Shown one piece after another: positions 1,887-9,624 of a stretch of 35,920 nucleotides of DNA. How positions within the stretch are numbered: the first letter of the stretch is position 1; every line of letters starts with the position of its first letter. The notes below the pieces were generated by a model that ran no database searches, was not told the origin of the DNA, and worked only from the letters and a program-made list of their open reading frames with translations. The translations under genes were made by a program, and so were the position numbers. The stretch is from Candidatus Margulisiibacteriota bacterium. GTDB taxonomy: Bacteria > Margulisbacteria > Riflemargulisbacteria > GWF2-39-127. The stretch spans positions 1 through 35,920 of the forward strand of contig QKMY01000067.1 in assembly GCA_003242895.1 (NCBI GenBank), in the 5' to 3' direction.

Positions 1887-3539
1887 TTATTCCGGTTTCA
1901 TAATAATATAAGGTACTAGTATTTCAGTAATTGATGCTCCACCATGTACATACTCGTAGACTCTCTTCCGGTCGTCAGTATCGAATTTGAATGGTCCCCG
2001 GCAAAAAGCATAGTTAACATTATTATCGCCTGGAAGAAGAAATGTTTCAGGATTAAGGAGAAGATGGGTGTTTGCCGTCTTGAAATCCGAAAGTTTATCA
2101 ATCCGTGCTTGTCCGATGAGAAATCGGTCGGGTACATGGGATAGATTTTCTTTTTGATCAAAACCCTTAATATTGAATTGATTAACTCGAATTGTCTGTT
2201 GTGCAAGAACGTTTCCGTGATCGCTTGTAATAATTAGAATTCCTTTGTTTTTTCTTATCAACTCAAAAGTAGTTGCCATGATGTTTTTGCTGAACTCGAC
2301 TATAACGTGTTCTCGAAATAGGGATTCATCAGTCCTTGTGTGGCTCATTGAGTGGGTAAGTCCGTCAATAAAGAGATATATCAGTGCTGTAATGTCAGCC
2401 GGGTTTCTCTCAGTTTTTTTGAGTTTTTCAAATGCACTGCTTGTTTCCGCATGATGTATATACTTTCCGGTGAGACCATGGTTTTTTAAGTACTTATGAA
2501 AAAGTAACTCTTCATACTGATTGTTTAATAGTTGACCATGATAGGCTTCCAGTGAGCATTCTTTCGGAGATTTGCCTGCTAACAAGCTGTTTCGGCAGTA
2601 AGCAGTATAGGTAGGCAATAATGACCAGGAAATATTCTCCTGTATTGAATAACTTGGGAACTCTTTGTTGAAGATAGGTTTTACCTTTAGCCAATGATCA
2701 AATCTCATTGAATCAAATACCAACAGATAAACTGGCCGTGCAAAATTTTGTGATCGAATATCATCCAGTATATTCATGATGAATAAGGGATGTGGTTCTC
2801 CTTCTTTTTGCCAAACCGGGAAGTGCTTTAAATAATAATTTGTAAATTTATAATCGATATTTGATTTGATTTTCGAAAAGTTAGTAATGATATCCTCTTT
2901 GTGGCGGAACGAGTCAAGTAATATATCAAATTCACAACTTTTGTAATACAATTCCTCCCATTCCTTAAACGAATGAGGTGTAACAGACTGAATTACTGAC
3001 ATTGCTTCTGCCAGGTTTGGTTCTATGTTATTTATTTTTCCGGCAATTACATTTATTTTATTTTCCCAGGAAGAGAGATCTTTCTTGATAGCGGAATTTT
3101 CGATATAAAGATATATTAGTCGAATAAAGAAAAAAGTTAACGAGAATAGAAGGAGTATACTTCCGAATAGCGCTAATCTAATATCATGAATAAAGTTTGC
3201 CTGAATAATTTCTATGAGGTAGTAATTATTATCATGTATAGCCAATTTTTGGTTTTCGGATATCTTTTTCAAAGCTGACGGAGATATTCTTGTAATAGAC
3301 AATATAGCTCCTTTTGCTTTGTAATCGTCAAGAATTGAAGGTATTGAGGTGGCGCTTTGCACTTCCTTTTTTATTTGATTTAATAGTTCTTCTTTTCCGG
3401 TGCGGATATTGTTTTCAATTTTAGGAAAAACAAACCCAACGTGAATAATGAATACTACCATTAGTGAAATGAGTAAGGACAATGTCAGTGAACTGAAGTT
3501 GCGTTTGTTGTTTCTAGTGAAAATATTTATTTTAGCCAT
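1887..3539 (-). CDS. Transmembrane PglZ-domain (PorX-like) phosphoesterase
   Basis: The 550-residue protein has TM1 (about 16-38), a segment of about 80 residues likely outside the membrane (39-120), TM2 (about 122-145), a linker, and a PglZ domain of the alkaline phosphatase superfamily (about 265-550). Metal and catalytic signatures are present: FDSMR (D276), LLPTYTAYCRN (candidate nucleophile T310 or T312), FIDGLTHS (D392, H396), TSDHGN (D440, H441) and a C-terminal VHGG (H532) followed by EILVP. The pattern resembles the PglZ half of PorX, the type IX secretion regulator, but the receiver half is replaced by a two-TM sensor-like module. The start codon lies inside the end of the DinG-like gene (13-bp overlap), so translation is coupled. 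Domain call is strong; substrate and role are unknown. Confidence 0.8.
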   Translation of the reverse strand: MAKINIFTRNNKRNFSSLTLSLLISLMVVFIIHVGFVFPKIENNIRTGKEELLNQIKKEVQSATSIPSILDDYKAKGAILSITRISPSALKKISENQKLAIHDNNYYLIEIIQANFIHDIRLALFGSILLLFSLTFFFIRLIYLYIENSAIKKDLSSWENKINVIAGKINNIEPNLAEAMSVIQSVTPHSFKEWEELYYKSCEFDILLDSFRHKEDIITNFSKIKSNIDYKFTNYYLKHFPVWQKEGEPHPLFIMNILDDIRSQNFARPVYLLVFDSMRFDHWLKVKPIFNKEFPSYSIQENISWSLLPTYTAYCRNSLLAGKSPKECSLEAYHGQLLNNQYEELLFHKYLKNHGLTGKYIHHAETSSAFEKLKKTERNPADITALIYLFIDGLTHSMSHTRTDESLFREHVIVEFSKNIMATTFELIRKNKGILIITSDHGNVLAQQTIRVNQFNIKGFDQKENLSHVPDRFLIGQARIDKLSDFKTANTHLLLNPETFLLPGDNNVNYAFCRGPFKFDTDDRKRVYEYVHGGASITEILVPYIIMKPE

Positions 3540-6292
3540 TGTTTAATTGTTTTTACTAAATCGTCTTTATTTACGATACAGTGCTCAATGTTTTTAAAAA
3601 CGTTATTAATAATCTGGGAATAAGAATATTTATGATTATTAAAAGATAGATTTACTATTGCTGTCTTTTTATTACACTGCCGAATCATGTTATTGAGTGT
3701 CGACTGGCATGTTAAAATAGCTTCAGGTATAACTAAATCAAGTAGCCAGTTTTTATTGTTTTTTCTATAATTCCTGATTTTTGTTTTTAACAAAGGCAAT
3801 GTGATATCAGGCAATGGAAAATCTATAAATATTATACAAGAAATTTGCACATTAGAAAGGTTTATATTTTCAAAAAAATTGTATGTTCCAATAATAGTTG
3901 CTCCTGGCGAGCAACAGAAAGTATTTATTAGTGTGTTTTTTGATTTATAGGAATCTTGATGTAGGATCATTTTTTCCGATTTTGAGAAAAATGGTACTAA
4001 TTCCGAATGTATTTTTTTTACAGTCTTCAGATGCTTACTGACAATTAGTACTTGACCTGGGATTGCTTTTATTGACTTTTTAATAGTTTCCCGTTGAAAT
4101 TGCTTTAATTGTTTAATAGTAGCGAGTTGAACTGAGGGTATCGGACTAAAAAACTTTGTGGTATTAATGAGGGCTTTTGATTCGTTTTGTATACATCTAT
4201 AATCATCAAAAGTTTTGTCAATTAGGGTATTTTCCAGAAAATAATTAAACTTGTCATTTATTGTTATATAAGGTGAATGAAAGATAATATTATCGATATT
4301 CAAAATATTATCACCTAAATATTTTTCGTGATTAATTAATACTGTATGCAGAGTAGCAGATTTGAACTCCTTCTTATTGTATATTTCTATCCATGACGTA
4401 AAGTATTCTGATGGATGAGCGACATTTTTAAGGCTGCCACTTAAACTTTTTATCTGATGGCTAAAGGTGATCAATCGAAATATAATGTTATTTAAAAATG
4501 AGAGATCTGCCTTTTCTAATATGGTTTTTAATTTTTCAGCTTTTTTTAAGCAAAGCGTTATTTTTTTATAAATTGCATTAATTAACGCCAGTATCTTTTT
4601 CCATTGGACTGTGGTTCTTGTTGTTTTGGTAAGCATAATTGTATCCTTGATTTTTATGTTACTACGGCTAGAATAAGTATCAATCAAGGAATCGAATAGA
4701 GAATTAGCAAGTTCAGTACATAAAGCAACTTCTTTTGTTAGTTTTTCTGATTCTTTTATAATTTTTCTTTGCAATGCCGGAAGGACCGTAATAGTTTCAA
4801 ATCTCTCAACCATTTCCTGCATAATATTTAGATTGTAAGATCCAAGGTTATTGCAAATTTTTGAAATAACTTTTATAGATAACACAACTTTATTATTAGC
4901 TGTGATAATTTCACTGATTTTATGGGAATCGTACAGTATAAGGTTGTAATTACTAGGAAGGAAATATCGAATTGAATGATCTTTGGAAATCATCGTTTCA
5001 TGTTTAGTAATGAGTAGGTTCGTATTCGATAGTTTTTCTTTTTTAGGTTTTAAATAGCATTTATCTGAATATGTGCATTTATAATTTAGGCAAACAGAAG
5101 GCTCGCAATATAAGGTTTTATGGAATTGATAATATGTTTTTTTATGAAGTTCTGTAAGAAGTCCGGTTTCTGTTAATGATAACCAGGTGAGAACCGGTGC
5201 TAATTCAATTACATCATTTGTTTTTCCTGACACTGTGAGTGAATGAAGCAACGTTTCAACTTTTGCCAGACACACATAATCATTCGCGTTATTGAATGTT
5301 GAAATGACGAGATCTGGCAATAATGGAGTTATTGAATTGCATATATCAAGTATCTGTGCCTGGGTAGCCTCATTCAAAACAGAAATTACTACTGGCCTAT
5401 TATTTTGAACTGACCACAGTGCTGCTGGTAATATGTTTTGTAACAGCGATTGGTTATCATTTTTAGCTTCGATAATTAAGTATCTGTTTTTATTGAAAGA
5501 ATTGCATGTTTCTTTGAGCAGTAAAGTATCGTCACAATTCCCTGCAATAGCTTTGAACATGTTTTTAGTTTTTGCATAAATTATTTTTTTTTCTGTACAC
5601 GGTTTTGGATTAGATGAAAGGATGTTGGTTTTCGGTTTAAGCAGTGAATGCCACTCAAACTTTAGATCATTCTCTTGTCCGTGTTTAATTCTTTGTTCAA
5701 AACATTTCTCGATTATCTGGGCTGTAGGAGAATTGCAATAATGGAAAAGTTTTGTCATTTGAAAAAGCAGGTTAGCATCGAGTTTCTTTATTTCTTCAAC
5801 TGTTTTTAGAAATAGGATAGCAGTGATCCTGGCATCAGTGATGGCCTTGTGAAATGTTTCCGTAACATTTAAGAAACTTCTGGCAATCCTCTCCAGCTTG
5901 TAGCTCTGAGCACAAGGCTGAATTATCGAAAAAAGCTGAAGCGTGTCAACCGTCTTACAATCGAGCTTTGACAGGAAATTACTCGAATAAGTTCGATTGA
6001 TTATCGAATAATCAAAGTTAACATTATGTCCAACGAGTATCGCATCTCCTATGAAATCACGGATTATATCCGCAACTTCAAGAAAACTAGGCGCATCTTT
6101 CACGTCATCATCGGTTATTCCTGTTAAGCTTGATATAATCGGGGGGATTGATTTTTTTGGTTTTAGGAAGGTATTGAATTCTTCATGCAACGCATTGCTT
6201 TTTATTTTAACCAGGCCAATATCGATAATTTCATTGTCATCATAAGCTAAGCTGGTTGTTTCAACATCGACAACTACAAAATTCATTTTCAT
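3527..6292 (-). CDS. DnaQ-type exonuclease fused to a degenerate DinG-like helicase
   Basis: About 921 residues. The N-terminal 170 residues are a DEDDh 3'-5' exonuclease with all catalytic residues: DVET, HNVNFD, and HKAITDA (numbering from an upstream TTG: D11, E13, H91, D96, H150, D155). The rest follows the DinG/XPD-like helicase layout seen in Firmicutes exonuclease-DinG proteins. All four Fe-S cysteines appear kept: C343 in DYVCL, then C403-x4-C408-x5-C414, the spacing of E. coli C194/C199/C205. The ATPase motifs are gone: Walker A EAGTGTGKT reads EAKNDNQSL, DEAH reads YDSH, and QGFGRLIR reads STLNNMIR. It is probably an active nuclease on a dead helicase scaffold. Candidate starts are TTG 6298, ATG 6292 and ATG 6286, none with a strong ribosome site. 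It is cotranscribed with hflX (upstream) and the PglZ gene (overlapping). Confidence 0.85.
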   Translation of the reverse strand: MKMNFVVVDVETTSLAYDDNEIIDIGLVKIKSNALHEEFNTFLKPKKSIPPIISSLTGITDDDVKDAPSFLEVADIIRDFIGDAILVGHNVNFDYSIINRTYSSNFLSKLDCKTVDTLQLFSIIQPCAQSYKLERIARSFLNVTETFHKAITDARITAILFLKTVEEIKKLDANLLFQMTKLFHYCNSPTAQIIEKCFEQRIKHGQENDLKFEWHSLLKPKTNILSSNPKPCTEKKIIYAKTKNMFKAIAGNCDDTLLLKETCNSFNKNRYLIIEAKNDNQSLLQNILPAALWSVQNNRPVVISVLNEATQAQILDICNSITPLLPDLVISTFNNANDYVCLAKVETLLHSLTVSGKTNDVIELAPVLTWLSLTETGLLTELHKKTYYQFHKTLYCEPSVCLNYKCTYSDKCYLKPKKEKLSNTNLLITKHETMISKDHSIRYFLPSNYNLILYDSHKISEIITANNKVVLSIKVISKICNNLGSYNLNIMQEMVERFETITVLPALQRKIIKESEKLTKEVALCTELANSLFDSLIDTYSSRSNIKIKDTIMLTKTTRTTVQWKKILALINAIYKKITLCLKKAEKLKTILEKADLSFLNNIIFRLITFSHQIKSLSGSLKNVAHPSEYFTSWIEIYNKKEFKSATLHTVLINHEKYLGDNILNIDNIIFHSPYITINDKFNYFLENTLIDKTFDDYRCIQNESKALINTTKFFSPIPSVQLATIKQLKQFQRETIKKSIKAIPGQVLIVSKHLKTVKKIHSELVPFFSKSEKMILHQDSYKSKNTLINTFCCSPGATIIGTYNFFENINLSNVQISCIIFIDFPLPDITLPLLKTKIRNYRKNNKNWLLDLVIPEAILTCQSTLNNMIRQCNKKTAIVNLSFNNHKYSYSQIINNVFKNIEHCIVNKDDLVKTIKQWLK

Positions 6293-6356
6293 AAACAATC
6301 ATTCGTTATCCATAAAAAAAGAGAATGGAAGACTTTCCTAGCTTTGTTTAATTTCA

Positions 6357-7643
6357 TCATTCAATAATATAATCTTTTATAATATGCAATAAATCATTTT
6401 TCATCTCAATTTCCATTTTAACACCATTTTTTTCATAATTTTCTTCAATAATAGTAGTCTTTTGATGAAGAAAGTCTACAATGTTCATGTGATCGAATGG
6501 AATAAGTACTTTATGAGTCTTGCGGTATTGGCTTAGTAGCTCTTCTATTAAGAACATCGCATTTTCTATTCCGATATCTTCTTTTAATGAAATACCTGTG
6601 CAAGGATAGTACTTCTTTCGGTAATCATCGAGTATCTCTTTGTTTTCGAGCCTATCAATTTTATTGAGTAGGGTAATCATCGGCTTATTTGCTACCTTTA
6701 GTTCTTCTAGGACATGATACACTGAGTCAATAAGAAACCGGGGATTAGGGGCGCTAATGTCTACCACATGTATAAAAAAATCCGCTTCTTCTACCTCTTC
6801 AAGCGTTGCTCGAAAAGCAGAAACAAGGCTATGCGGTAATTTGTTGATGAACCCTACCGTATCAATTAAAAGTATTTCCTGGTTTCCTGGAAGACGCATT
6901 TTTCTTGTAGTCGTATCAAGGGTTGCAAATAATTTATCTTCTGCCAGAACATTTGCGTTAGTTAGTTTGTTAAGCAGTGTAGATTTTCCTGCGTTGGTAT
7001 AGCCGATAATTGCAGCAGTAGGGATAGTTTTGTTCAATCTTTTTTTTCTATGTAGTTCTCTCTGGTTTTTAATTTCCTCGATTTTATCCGAAAGAAACGA
7101 GATTTTGTTTCGGATTGTTCTTCTATCGACTTCAATCTGCTTTTCCCCTGGGCCTCTCGTACCTATTTTCCCTACTTGCCGGCCTAAGTGCTCCCACATT
7201 CTTGATAAACGAGGTAACTGGTAGCTTAGAGCAGCAAGCTCGACCTGCAAAATGGCTTCTTTCGTGTTTGCCCTCTGGGCGAAAATCAATAATATGAGTT
7301 CCGTTCTGTCTACTATCTTTAATTGGTTTAATCCTGTTTCTTCTCTAAGCGCGGTTTCCATGTTTTTTTGCTGAGAAGGACTGAGTTCGTCATCGACAAT
7401 GATAATATCAGGTTTTTTGATTTTAATATCTTCCGCTATTTCAGTTATTTTGCCTTTTCCAAAATAAAGCCTGGAATCTGGGTTGTGTTTGTTTTGCGTA
7501 TAGCTGGTTATTACTTCGATTTGCGCTGTGTCAGCGAGCAAAGCGAGTTCTTCCATGGAATAGCGAAAGTAATATTCGTTAACTTTTGAAGTTTTTAGTC
7601 CGAGTAAAGCAGCCTTTAATTTGCTGGTACTAGAAGTTTCCAT
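6357..7643 (-). CDS. hflX: GTPase HflX
   Basis: HflX is a ribosome-binding GTPase that splits stalled or stressed 70S ribosomes. Seen here: the N-terminal HflX domain with YFGKGK (about 63-68), the linker signature GTRGPGEKQIEVDRR (about 164-178), and a G domain with P-loop GYTNAGKST (217-225), DTVGF (264-268) and NKID (330-333). The length of about 428 residues is normal for the family. I place the start at ATG 7643 rather than the in-frame TTG at 7652. Either start overlaps the receiver gene, so translation is probably coupled to it. The downstream partner is the exonuclease/DinG-like gene, 60 bp or so away. Confidence 0.95.
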   Translation of the reverse strand: METSSTSKLKAALLGLKTSKVNEYYFRYSMEELALLADTAQIEVITSYTQNKHNPDSRLYFGKGKITEIAEDIKIKKPDIIIVDDELSPSQQKNMETALREETGLNQLKIVDRTELILLIFAQRANTKEAILQVELAALSYQLPRLSRMWEHLGRQVGKIGTRGPGEKQIEVDRRTIRNKISFLSDKIEEIKNQRELHRKKRLNKTIPTAAIIGYTNAGKSTLLNKLTNANVLAEDKLFATLDTTTRKMRLPGNQEILLIDTVGFINKLPHSLVSAFRATLEEVEEADFFIHVVDISAPNPRFLIDSVYHVLEELKVANKPMITLLNKIDRLENKEILDDYRKKYYPCTGISLKEDIGIENAMFLIEELLSQYRKTHKVLIPFDHMNIVDFLHQKTTIIEENYEKNGVKMEIEMKNDLLHIIKDYIIE

Positions 7644-8007
7644 GAGCGGCAAAATAATCGTTTAAAAATTTTATAACATTATTTACCTCAAAAGGCTTAA
7701 TAAAGTGTTCAATGACGTTTTCCGGGAGCTTATCCAATGTTGTATTATCTGCGTATGCTGTTATTACAACCACTGGCAACGTAGGTTTCAGTCTATACAT
7801 GGATTCAATTGCCGTTATTCCATCAATATTTCTCATTTTTAAGTCAATTAGCGCTAAGTCAATCAGCGTGTTTTGTGTGGACATTATGGCTTCAACTCCA
7901 TTATCACATTGGATAACGTTAAATCCGGCTTTTTCAAGTAGGAAGGCCATAGATTTTCTGAGGCTGGTTTCATCATCCGCAAGCAAAATGTTTTTGATGT
8001 TATTCAT
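7630..8007 (-). CDS. Stand-alone response-regulator receiver domain
   Basis: A 125-residue CheY-like receiver with no output domain. Conserved positions are present: acidic pair D11/D12, phosphorylation site D55 (LALIDLKM), T83 and K104 (FIKPF). A GAGGAG ribosome site 7 nt upstream fixes the start at ATG 8007; an upstream ATG at 8022 overlaps that site and is unlikely. The start lies inside the 3' end of gpsA (8-bp overlap) and the stop lies inside hflX, so expression follows the operon. No histidine kinase is in the window. The partner is unknown; the PglZ-domain protein in the same operon is one candidate, because in PorX a receiver and a PglZ domain are fused. Confidence 0.9.
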   Translation of the reverse strand: MNNIKNILLADDETSLRKSMAFLLEKAGFNVIQCDNGVEAIMSTQNTLIDLALIDLKMRNIDGITAIESMYRLKPTLPVVVITAYADNTTLDKLPENVIEHFIKPFEVNNVIKFLNDYFAAHGNF

Positions 8008-9037
8008 ATGATGTCTCCTCATATTCCAATTTCAACTTTCTTTCCATAAGATTATTAATAGCTTGCATAGGTGATAAGTTTTTAAAAAGAACATTGTAGA
8101 CCTGTTCTATTATTGGTAATTCTACCTTATGTTGCTTTGATACTCCATAGATTATTTCACAAGTCTTTATGCCTTCTGCTATAGACCCGATGCTTGAGAC
8201 GATCTCATCAATTGTTTTACCATGAGCCAGCTGGAATCCTACTTGATAGTTGCGGCTTAATGGTGAGGTGCATGTGGTGATGAGATCCCCCATGCCTGCC
8301 AATCCCAGCATAGTAGAAGGTTTTGCTCCTAATGTTTTTGCGAGCTTGGTTATCTCATAAATACCTCTTATCATGAGTGATGATTTTGAGTTGTTTCCTA
8401 ATTCAAGTCCATCTGCAATTCCCGCAGCAATTGCAATAATATTTTTAAGAATTCCGCCTAGTTCTATTCCAATGATATCTTCGTTTGTGTAAACTCTAAA
8501 ATATTTATTGCTTAGTGCTTGCTGCGCGGCTTCGGCTGTTTTTATGCTTTTCGAAGCAATAACTGAAGTCGCTGGTTTTTTTTGTGCAATTTCAAGTGCT
8601 ATGTTTGGTCCTGAAAGTATCCCAATATTGTCATGGAGATACGCCGGGAGTTCTTCGCACAAAATATCATACGGTGTTTTAGCCGTGTTTTGCTCCAAGC
8701 CTTTGGTCGCGCTAATAACGACAGTGCTTTGTTTGATTTTGCTTACTATGTTTTTGCAAGTATTCCTGAAGAACTTTGAGGCTACAACTATTATTATAAT
8801 GTCACTATCCAAAAAATCGTCCGAGAACTCAGAATGAAATGTAATAGAATTCGGAAGCTCTATTCCTGGTAACAGATTGTTTTTTCGAGAAACGGTCATT
8901 TGTTGCTTCAGGGTTTTGTCGTGGGTCCAAAGCTTGACCTTATGAGAGTTATCTGAAGCAATAATTGCGAGTGTTGTTCCCCATGCGCCGCTTCCGATTA
9001 CTGAAATTTTTTTTTGTGATGGTTGCACGATTGTCAA
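8000..9037 (-). CDS. gpsA: NAD(P)H-dependent glycerol-3-phosphate dehydrogenase
   Basis: GpsA reduces dihydroxyacetone phosphate to sn-glycerol 3-phosphate, the backbone for phospholipid synthesis. The 345-residue protein has the Rossmann motif VIGSGAWGTTLA (13-24), the conserved KGLE (112-115) and SGPNIALEIA (142-151) blocks, and the catalytic lysine K198 in LGGILKNI. The start is TTG 9037, which overlaps the plsY stop as TTGA and has an AGGAG site 8 nt upstream. Pairing with plsY is metabolically sensible because PlsY consumes the product. Confidence 0.96.
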   Translation of the reverse strand: MTIVQPSQKKISVIGSGAWGTTLAIIASDNSHKVKLWTHDKTLKQQMTVSRKNNLLPGIELPNSITFHSEFSDDFLDSDIIIIVVASKFFRNTCKNIVSKIKQSTVVISATKGLEQNTAKTPYDILCEELPAYLHDNIGILSGPNIALEIAQKKPATSVIASKSIKTAEAAQQALSNKYFRVYTNEDIIGIELGGILKNIIAIAAGIADGLELGNNSKSSLMIRGIYEITKLAKTLGAKPSTMLGLAGMGDLITTCTSPLSRNYQVGFQLAHGKTIDEIVSSIGSIAEGIKTCEIIYGVSKQHKVELPIIEQVYNVLFKNLSPMQAINNLMERKLKLEYEETSYE

Positions 9038-9624
9038 ACTTTATTCTCCTTGCCATGAAGTAGCCTTGCGATATTTGCTTTATGTTTTATTATGATATAG
9101 CCAGCTATGAATGTAAGGAATACCTGATAAGGAAGAGGGGTTGAAAAATAAGGAAGGCATGACAGAATAATTACTAGGATGGATGATGATATTGTAGCTA
9201 ACGAGACATATCTTGTTGATGCAATTATCATCGCAGCTGTTAATGCAGCAGCAATCAGAAATATAGGTTGAATAAACAGCAGTACACCAAGTCCTGTTGC
9301 TGCACCTTTTCCTCCTTTGAATTTTAAGAATGGAGAAAATGTATGCCCTAGGATAGCAAGTGTCGCTGCAATGATTACATATATATTTTGATGGAAAAAA
9401 AAGTAGCCAGATAAGCAGGCAATATATCCTTTAAGAAAATCCAACAAAAAAACCAGTATGGCATAACGTAATCCTAACGCGCGGTATACATTTGTAGCAC
9501 CTGCATTTTTACTGCCAAATTCAAGGAGGTTAACTCCCTTCGCTTTTGATACGATGATACTGTAAGGTATAGAACCCCAGAAAAATATTAAAGTATAAAA
9601 AAATATATAATAAAAGAACTCCAC
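9034..9624 (-). CDS. plsY: Acyl-phosphate:glycerol-3-phosphate acyltransferase
   Basis: PlsY is an integral membrane enzyme that transfers an acyl group from acyl-phosphate to glycerol 3-phosphate, giving lysophosphatidic acid. The 196-residue protein has the family length, several TM segments and the conserved blocks GSKNAGATNVYRALG (about 37-51) and KFKGGKGAATG (about 101-111). The start is GTG 9624 with an AGGGGG ribosome site 6 nt upstream. It is the first gene of the minus-strand operon that runs down to 1233; the following gpsA start overlaps its stop by 4 bp. Confidence 0.95.
   Translation of the reverse strand: MEFFYYIFFYTLIFFWGSIPYSIIVSKAKGVNLLEFGSKNAGATNVYRALGLRYAILVFLLDFLKGYIACLSGYFFFHQNIYVIIAATLAILGHTFSPFLKFKGGKGAATGLGVLLFIQPIFLIAAALTAAMIIASTRYVSLATISSSILVIILSCLPYFSTPLPYQVFLTFIAGYIIIKHKANIARLLHGKENKV

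Follow-up and report, generated by a model that had tools for sequence, protein, structure and literature searches.

The window, the whole 35,920-nucleotide stretch of Candidatus Margulisiibacteriota contig QKMY01000067.1 analysed here, carries on its minus strand an exonuclease–DinG fusion (ExoDinG) in an operon between hflX and a gene for a PglZ-domain protein. ExoDinGs are DNA-repair enzymes in which a DEDDh 3′–5′ exonuclease is joined to a DinG helicase motor. The relevant features, with the basis for each, are:

1887–3539 (−), membrane-type PglZ-domain protein (PorX-like); its start codon lies in a 13-base overlap with the end of ExoDinG
3527–6298 (−), ExoDinG with a degenerate helicase motor (pseudo-helicase), 923 aa; Pfam and NCBIfam profile matches
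3530–5548 (−), degenerate DinG helicase half, aa 251–923, fold predicted to persist; alignment and predicted structure
3680–3703 (−), degenerate motif VI, STLNNMIR, aa 866–873, second Arg kept; alignment
3851–3889 (−), degenerate motif V, aa 804–816; alignment
4268–4276 (−), lost motif III SAT, now SPY, aa 675–677; alignment
4922–4933 (−), lost Walker B/DEAH, YDSH, aa 456–459; alignment
5057–5272 (−), stretch with four retained Fe–S cysteines, C343, C403, C408 and C414; alignment
5444–5470 (−), lost Walker A/motif I, EAKNDNQSL, aa 277–285; alignment
5810–6277 (−), DEDDh 3′–5′ exonuclease domain, aa 8–163, catalytic residues intact; Pfam and residue mapping
6357–7652 (−), hflX, conserved upstream neighbour; 42–46% identity to the hflX adjoining ExoDinG in class relatives
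8000–9037 (−), gpsA, conserved upstream neighbour; synteny with class relatives
9034–9624 (−), plsY, conserved upstream neighbour; synteny with class relatives
5269–7827 of L034 (G000:C26, same genome) (−), RadC-like (JAB) DinG fusion, 852 aa, helicase motifs fully intact

The initial annotation placed an exonuclease–DinG fusion at 3527–6292, and this assignment stands: 6292 is an in-frame ATG two codons inside a frame that opens with TTG at 6298, the codon from which motif residues are numbered here and also, despite the 6292 end, in the initial annotation. The gene must lie on the minus strand because the plus-strand reading of 3527–6292 has stops all through, which rules it out. Of the Pfam models, RNase_T scores 105 bits and Helicase_C_2 43 bits, and neither DEAD nor DEAD_2 is matched, whereas the intact class relative L054 matches both DEAD models and scores 157 bits for Helicase_C_2. 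The NCBIfam fusion models TIGR01407 (288 bits) and PRK08074 (337 bits) cover the protein over its full length at about half of their curated cut-offs (547.7 and 789 bits, respectively); the TIGR01407 cut-off is also missed by most intact ExoDinGs from outside the Firmicutes. On profile and alignment evidence, the window gene is a real full-length ExoDinG with degenerate motor motifs and retained nuclease residues.

The exonuclease half has all five DEDDh residues (D11, E13, D96, H150 and D155) and also keeps H91, and the cysteines typical of Fe–S DinG/XPD proteins are complete at C343, C403, C408 and C414, both as first annotated. These cysteines are kept in 4/4 cases, compared with 31/94 for the other conserved residues of the helicase half (Fisher p = 0.014), a difference that is only suggestive of selection acting on them. 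The earlier proposal of selection for a nuclease plus Fe–S fold without ATP hydrolysis is upheld as regards the retained residues, and the open frame speaks against simple decay; as regards selection on the cysteines it is left at a suggestion. The reverse pattern is seen in an ExoDinG recorded twice in our set (L040 and L070, the same protein), which has intact ATPase motifs and lacks most Fe–S cysteines. Separately, three Bacilli frames of ExoDinG length (G157:C1:3692106-3694619, G080:C35 and G101:C32) match the family model only from position ~100–164 on, and possibly have degenerate exonuclease domains.

For the helicase half, the protein was aligned with 41 homologues drawn from several phyla and scored at the positions that at least 85% of these share. 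The P-loop runs from E277 and A278 through K, N, D, N and Q to S284, in the place of the Walker A lysine, and L; DEAH has become Y456-D-S-H459, and both readings agree with those of the initial annotation. Consensus residues are lost in the motif I region (R254, Q257, G279, T280, G281, G283 and K284), at K336 and G337, in motif II (D456, E457 and A458), in motif III (A676 and T677, the motif now reading S675-P-Y), in motif V (W809F, G811N, D813N and G816N) and in motif VI (Q866, G867, G869 and R870). In this last motif, QxxGRLIR has become S866-T-L-N-N870-M-I-R873, with the first arginine replaced by asparagine and the second retained. The claim that all helicase ATPase motifs are lost holds for motifs I, II, III and V and for most of motif VI. 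Besides the four cysteines, the residues kept include E277, A278, H459, S675, G804, E810 and R873. Overall, the helicase half keeps 35/98 conserved residues, where the next lowest of the 41 homologues keeps 75%, and the exonuclease half keeps 21/25 (Fisher p = 2e-5 between the halves). The degree of motif loss is far past chance. An intact P-loop elsewhere, which would have spoken against this picture, is not present: the protein holds no second P-loop or DEAH-like string.

The ssDNA-contact residues of the motor have fared similarly. In Staphylococcus aureus DinG, unwinding is abolished by mutation of K336/K338, K801, F804, F823, R858 or Y864 (PMC12345164). Mapped on that structure (8zef), the window protein has N336, A338, D826, L829, L852, N887 and Y893, so that six of the seven unwinding-essential residues are lost and, by this mapping, most of the ssDNA contacts of the motor are gone.

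Two questions bear on the origin of this protein: (i) is it the ortholog of the ExoDinGs of related genomes and (ii) do other ExoDinGs share its motor loss. For the first question, hflX adjoins ExoDinG in all class relatives checked, and the order plsY–gpsA–hflX–ExoDinG is found in those whose contig reaches far enough. Trees put the window ExoDinG inside the Margulisbacteria group with moderate support (0.81 for the class grouping with both halves together, 0.96 for a wider group with the exonuclease half). The shared gene order and the intact relatives therefore identify it, as judged from synteny and trees, as a vertical, in-operon positional ortholog changed in place in one lineage. Horizontal replacement of the locus is ruled out by the synteny.

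For the second question, helicase motifs are intact in 41/41 aligned homologues, and the Walker A string is present in 75/75 DinG-type homologues from genome contigs, none of which is a dead-motor relative. A DEAH pattern missed four of these 75 (L066, L124, L125 and L131); the D and E are aligned in L066 and L124, whereas L125 and L131 are counted by their Walker A string alone. No dead-motor ExoDinG occurs among the full-length family matches listed for 121 genomes of Bacilli and 117 of the phylum of L064 (Cloacimonadota), where the weakest end-to-end matches listed score about 447–501 bits compared with 288 for the window protein, and no close relatives were found in viral contigs. The consistently dead-helicase clade envisaged in the initial annotation was not found; the pattern is known from a single genome, and all homologues examined have normal motifs. 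Relatives with normal Walker motifs, which the initial annotation would have taken to show that this copy is simply decaying, do exist in the same class and operon position, so that half of its own refuting case holds; the open frame speaks against simple decay.

The manner in which the helicase half has changed is informative. With a fixed topology, the tip branch of the window protein is 0.89 substitutions per site for the exonuclease half and 3.56 for the helicase half, roughly a fourfold acceleration, against a median helicase/exonuclease ratio of 1.06 across tips; no other helicase branch exceeds 2.27. At 0.345 (GC1) and 0.262 (GC3), the GC content of the helicase half lies below that of neighbouring genes (0.42–0.47 and 0.30–0.37) and of the exonuclease half, a sign of strongly relaxed constraint. 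Its 673 codons nevertheless contain no stop. In 60 simulated runs of neutral decay from an intact relative down to 36% identity, the same stretch acquired 29 stops on average and at least 19 in each run, and the open frame therefore argues against plain pseudogene decay. A codon-usage score did not discriminate: off-frame controls came close to the coding frame.

An AlphaFold2 model, which leans on the alignment of intact homologues, has good confidence values for most of the motor (mean pLDDT 81, pTM 0.81), and its best solved matches are two S. aureus DinG structures (TM 0.71–0.78, Z 25 (VIA) over ~850 residues). Predicted secondary structure keeps the DinG order, and the MD1, Fe–S/Arch and MD2 fold expected of an ExoDinG is present by prediction. 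Because the frame is open and the confidently predicted structure matches S. aureus DinG, a folded C-terminal half would appear to remain under selection, most probably as a scaffold, and the motor chemistry not.

A candidate for the missing helicase function is found in the same genome. The DinG C-terminal domain is present in 8/8 genomes of the class, but a second strong DinG occurs only in that of the window: the RadC-like fusion, 41% identical to one of Candidatus Frackibacter (L121). Used as a query against 55 genomes of the phylum, it matched only exonuclease fusions elsewhere. From this co-occurrence in one genome, 5′–3′ unwinding may have passed from ExoDinG to the RadC-like DinG. However, a second helicase alone does not explain the motor loss, because Bacilli commonly carry a second DinG-like helicase, such as B. 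subtilis YpvA (PMC12525004), with the ExoDinG motor still alive.

Taken together, we think it probable, if by no means certain, that the window protein is a pseudo-helicase ExoDinG, an ATP-independent exonuclease that keeps its old motor as a scaffold and has passed unwinding to the RadC-like DinG. The sequence shows that the in-operon ortholog has lost its ATP binding and hydrolysis motifs while the DEDDh residues, Fe–S cysteines, predicted fold and frame stayed. In this scheme, the protein would act as an ATP-independent 3′–5′ exonuclease on single-stranded DNA or RNA, its C-terminal half would stabilize or position the nuclease, perhaps via the Fe–S domain, and the RadC-like DinG, unique to this genome in the phylum, would take over 5′–3′ unwinding. 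Without a working ATPase, Listeria DinG E465A still has strong 3′–5′ exonuclease activity (PMC12774634), and the K290A form of B. subtilis DinG still breaks down linear ssDNA (PMC12525004); because such published ATPase mutants keep their nuclease, an ATP-independent exonuclease is a plausible stable state for the window protein. Points against this reading are its basis in one genome, the relaxed constraint on the helicase half, the dependence of the predicted fold on intact homologues, and the need for both activities in the crosslink resistance of S. aureus (PMC12345164).

The best rival explanation for the open frame is polar effects on the overlapping PglZ gene. Stops would be polar, and the frame would be kept open only through translational coupling, with no role for the C-terminal half at the protein level. 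The PglZ start codon does lie inside the ExoDinG stop region, and the two genes share a strand in a tight operon; polarity, however, would not keep cysteines, a hydrophobic core or length, and a shorter gene fused nearer to PglZ would do equally well. We regard this explanation as unlikely. It is quite unlikely that the old motor has instead acquired a new active role, for example by binding RNA or protein as a platform and so directing the nuclease; the net charge of its two C-terminal thirds is +28, whereas the entire helicase half carries +6 to +14 in five class relatives, but AT-driven drift to Lys and Asn accounts for part of this. The least probable of the three is that selection acts on the exonuclease alone and the helicase half is decaying, its frame open only because stops have yet to arise: rapid evolution, AT drift, intact relatives and loss spread across all motifs fit such decay, but every neutral run gave at least 19 stops, the divergence is far too large, and the retained residues are not randomly placed, with cysteines complete and secondary structure in DinG order.

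The pseudo-helicase reading can be compared with known systems. The ExoDinGs of S. aureus (8zef/9ii8), B. subtilis and Listeria (Lmo1899) resemble the window protein in length, domain order, DEDDh residues, fold and family models, but their Walker A, DEAH and motif VI are intact and they hydrolyse ATP. Bacillales members have no Fe–S cysteines where the window protein keeps its four, the opposite pattern of loss. E. coli DinG/YoaA (6fwr) matches the Fe–S helicase fold (TM 0.53/0.68), but has no exonuclease domain and an active motor. The passages on DinG in a 2025 review (PMC11981726) sort DinG-like proteins into ExoDinG, pExoDinG, RadC-like DinG and others. The RadC-like type, a separate gene without an exonuclease domain, is that of the second DinG described above. 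The pExoDinG of Caulobacter type, described there as having an incomplete nuclease centre and a live motor, is likewise a DinG fusion with one of two enzymes dead; the window protein is its mirror image and falls outside that class. An ExoDinG whose motor is dead does not appear in those passages, and a literature search for a pseudo-helicase DinG found none. As far as our survey and the review passages extend, the dead-motor ExoDinG is a previously undescribed variant.

Whether the two ExoDinG activities need one another is debated: nuclease-dead and helicase-dead S. aureus DinG both fail to restore crosslink resistance (PMC12345164), whereas for the Listeria and B. subtilis enzymes the nuclease is active in vitro by itself. 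The window lineage amounts to an evolutionary knock-out of one half, with nuclease, Fe–S cysteines and length kept, and makes the separability of the activities, and a role of the Fe–S domain apart from the motor, directly testable.

The downstream PglZ-domain protein has two predicted membrane segments, and none of this type was found elsewhere among 55 genomes of the phylum. Its closest solved relative is the PorX response regulator (7pv7), and the residues aligned with the PorX catalytic Thr and His are present. It is highly doubtful that the motor-dead ExoDinG and this co-translated, membrane-anchored, PorX-like phosphodiesterase form an ATP-independent nuclease pair that breaks down DNA, RNA or signalling oligonucleotides at the membrane. 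The operon that encodes the stand-alone PglZ protein also has a free-standing receiver domain (7630–8022, minus strand), inserted between gpsA and hflX. Because PorX is a fusion of receiver and PglZ domains, the two proteins may constitute a split PorX-like pair.
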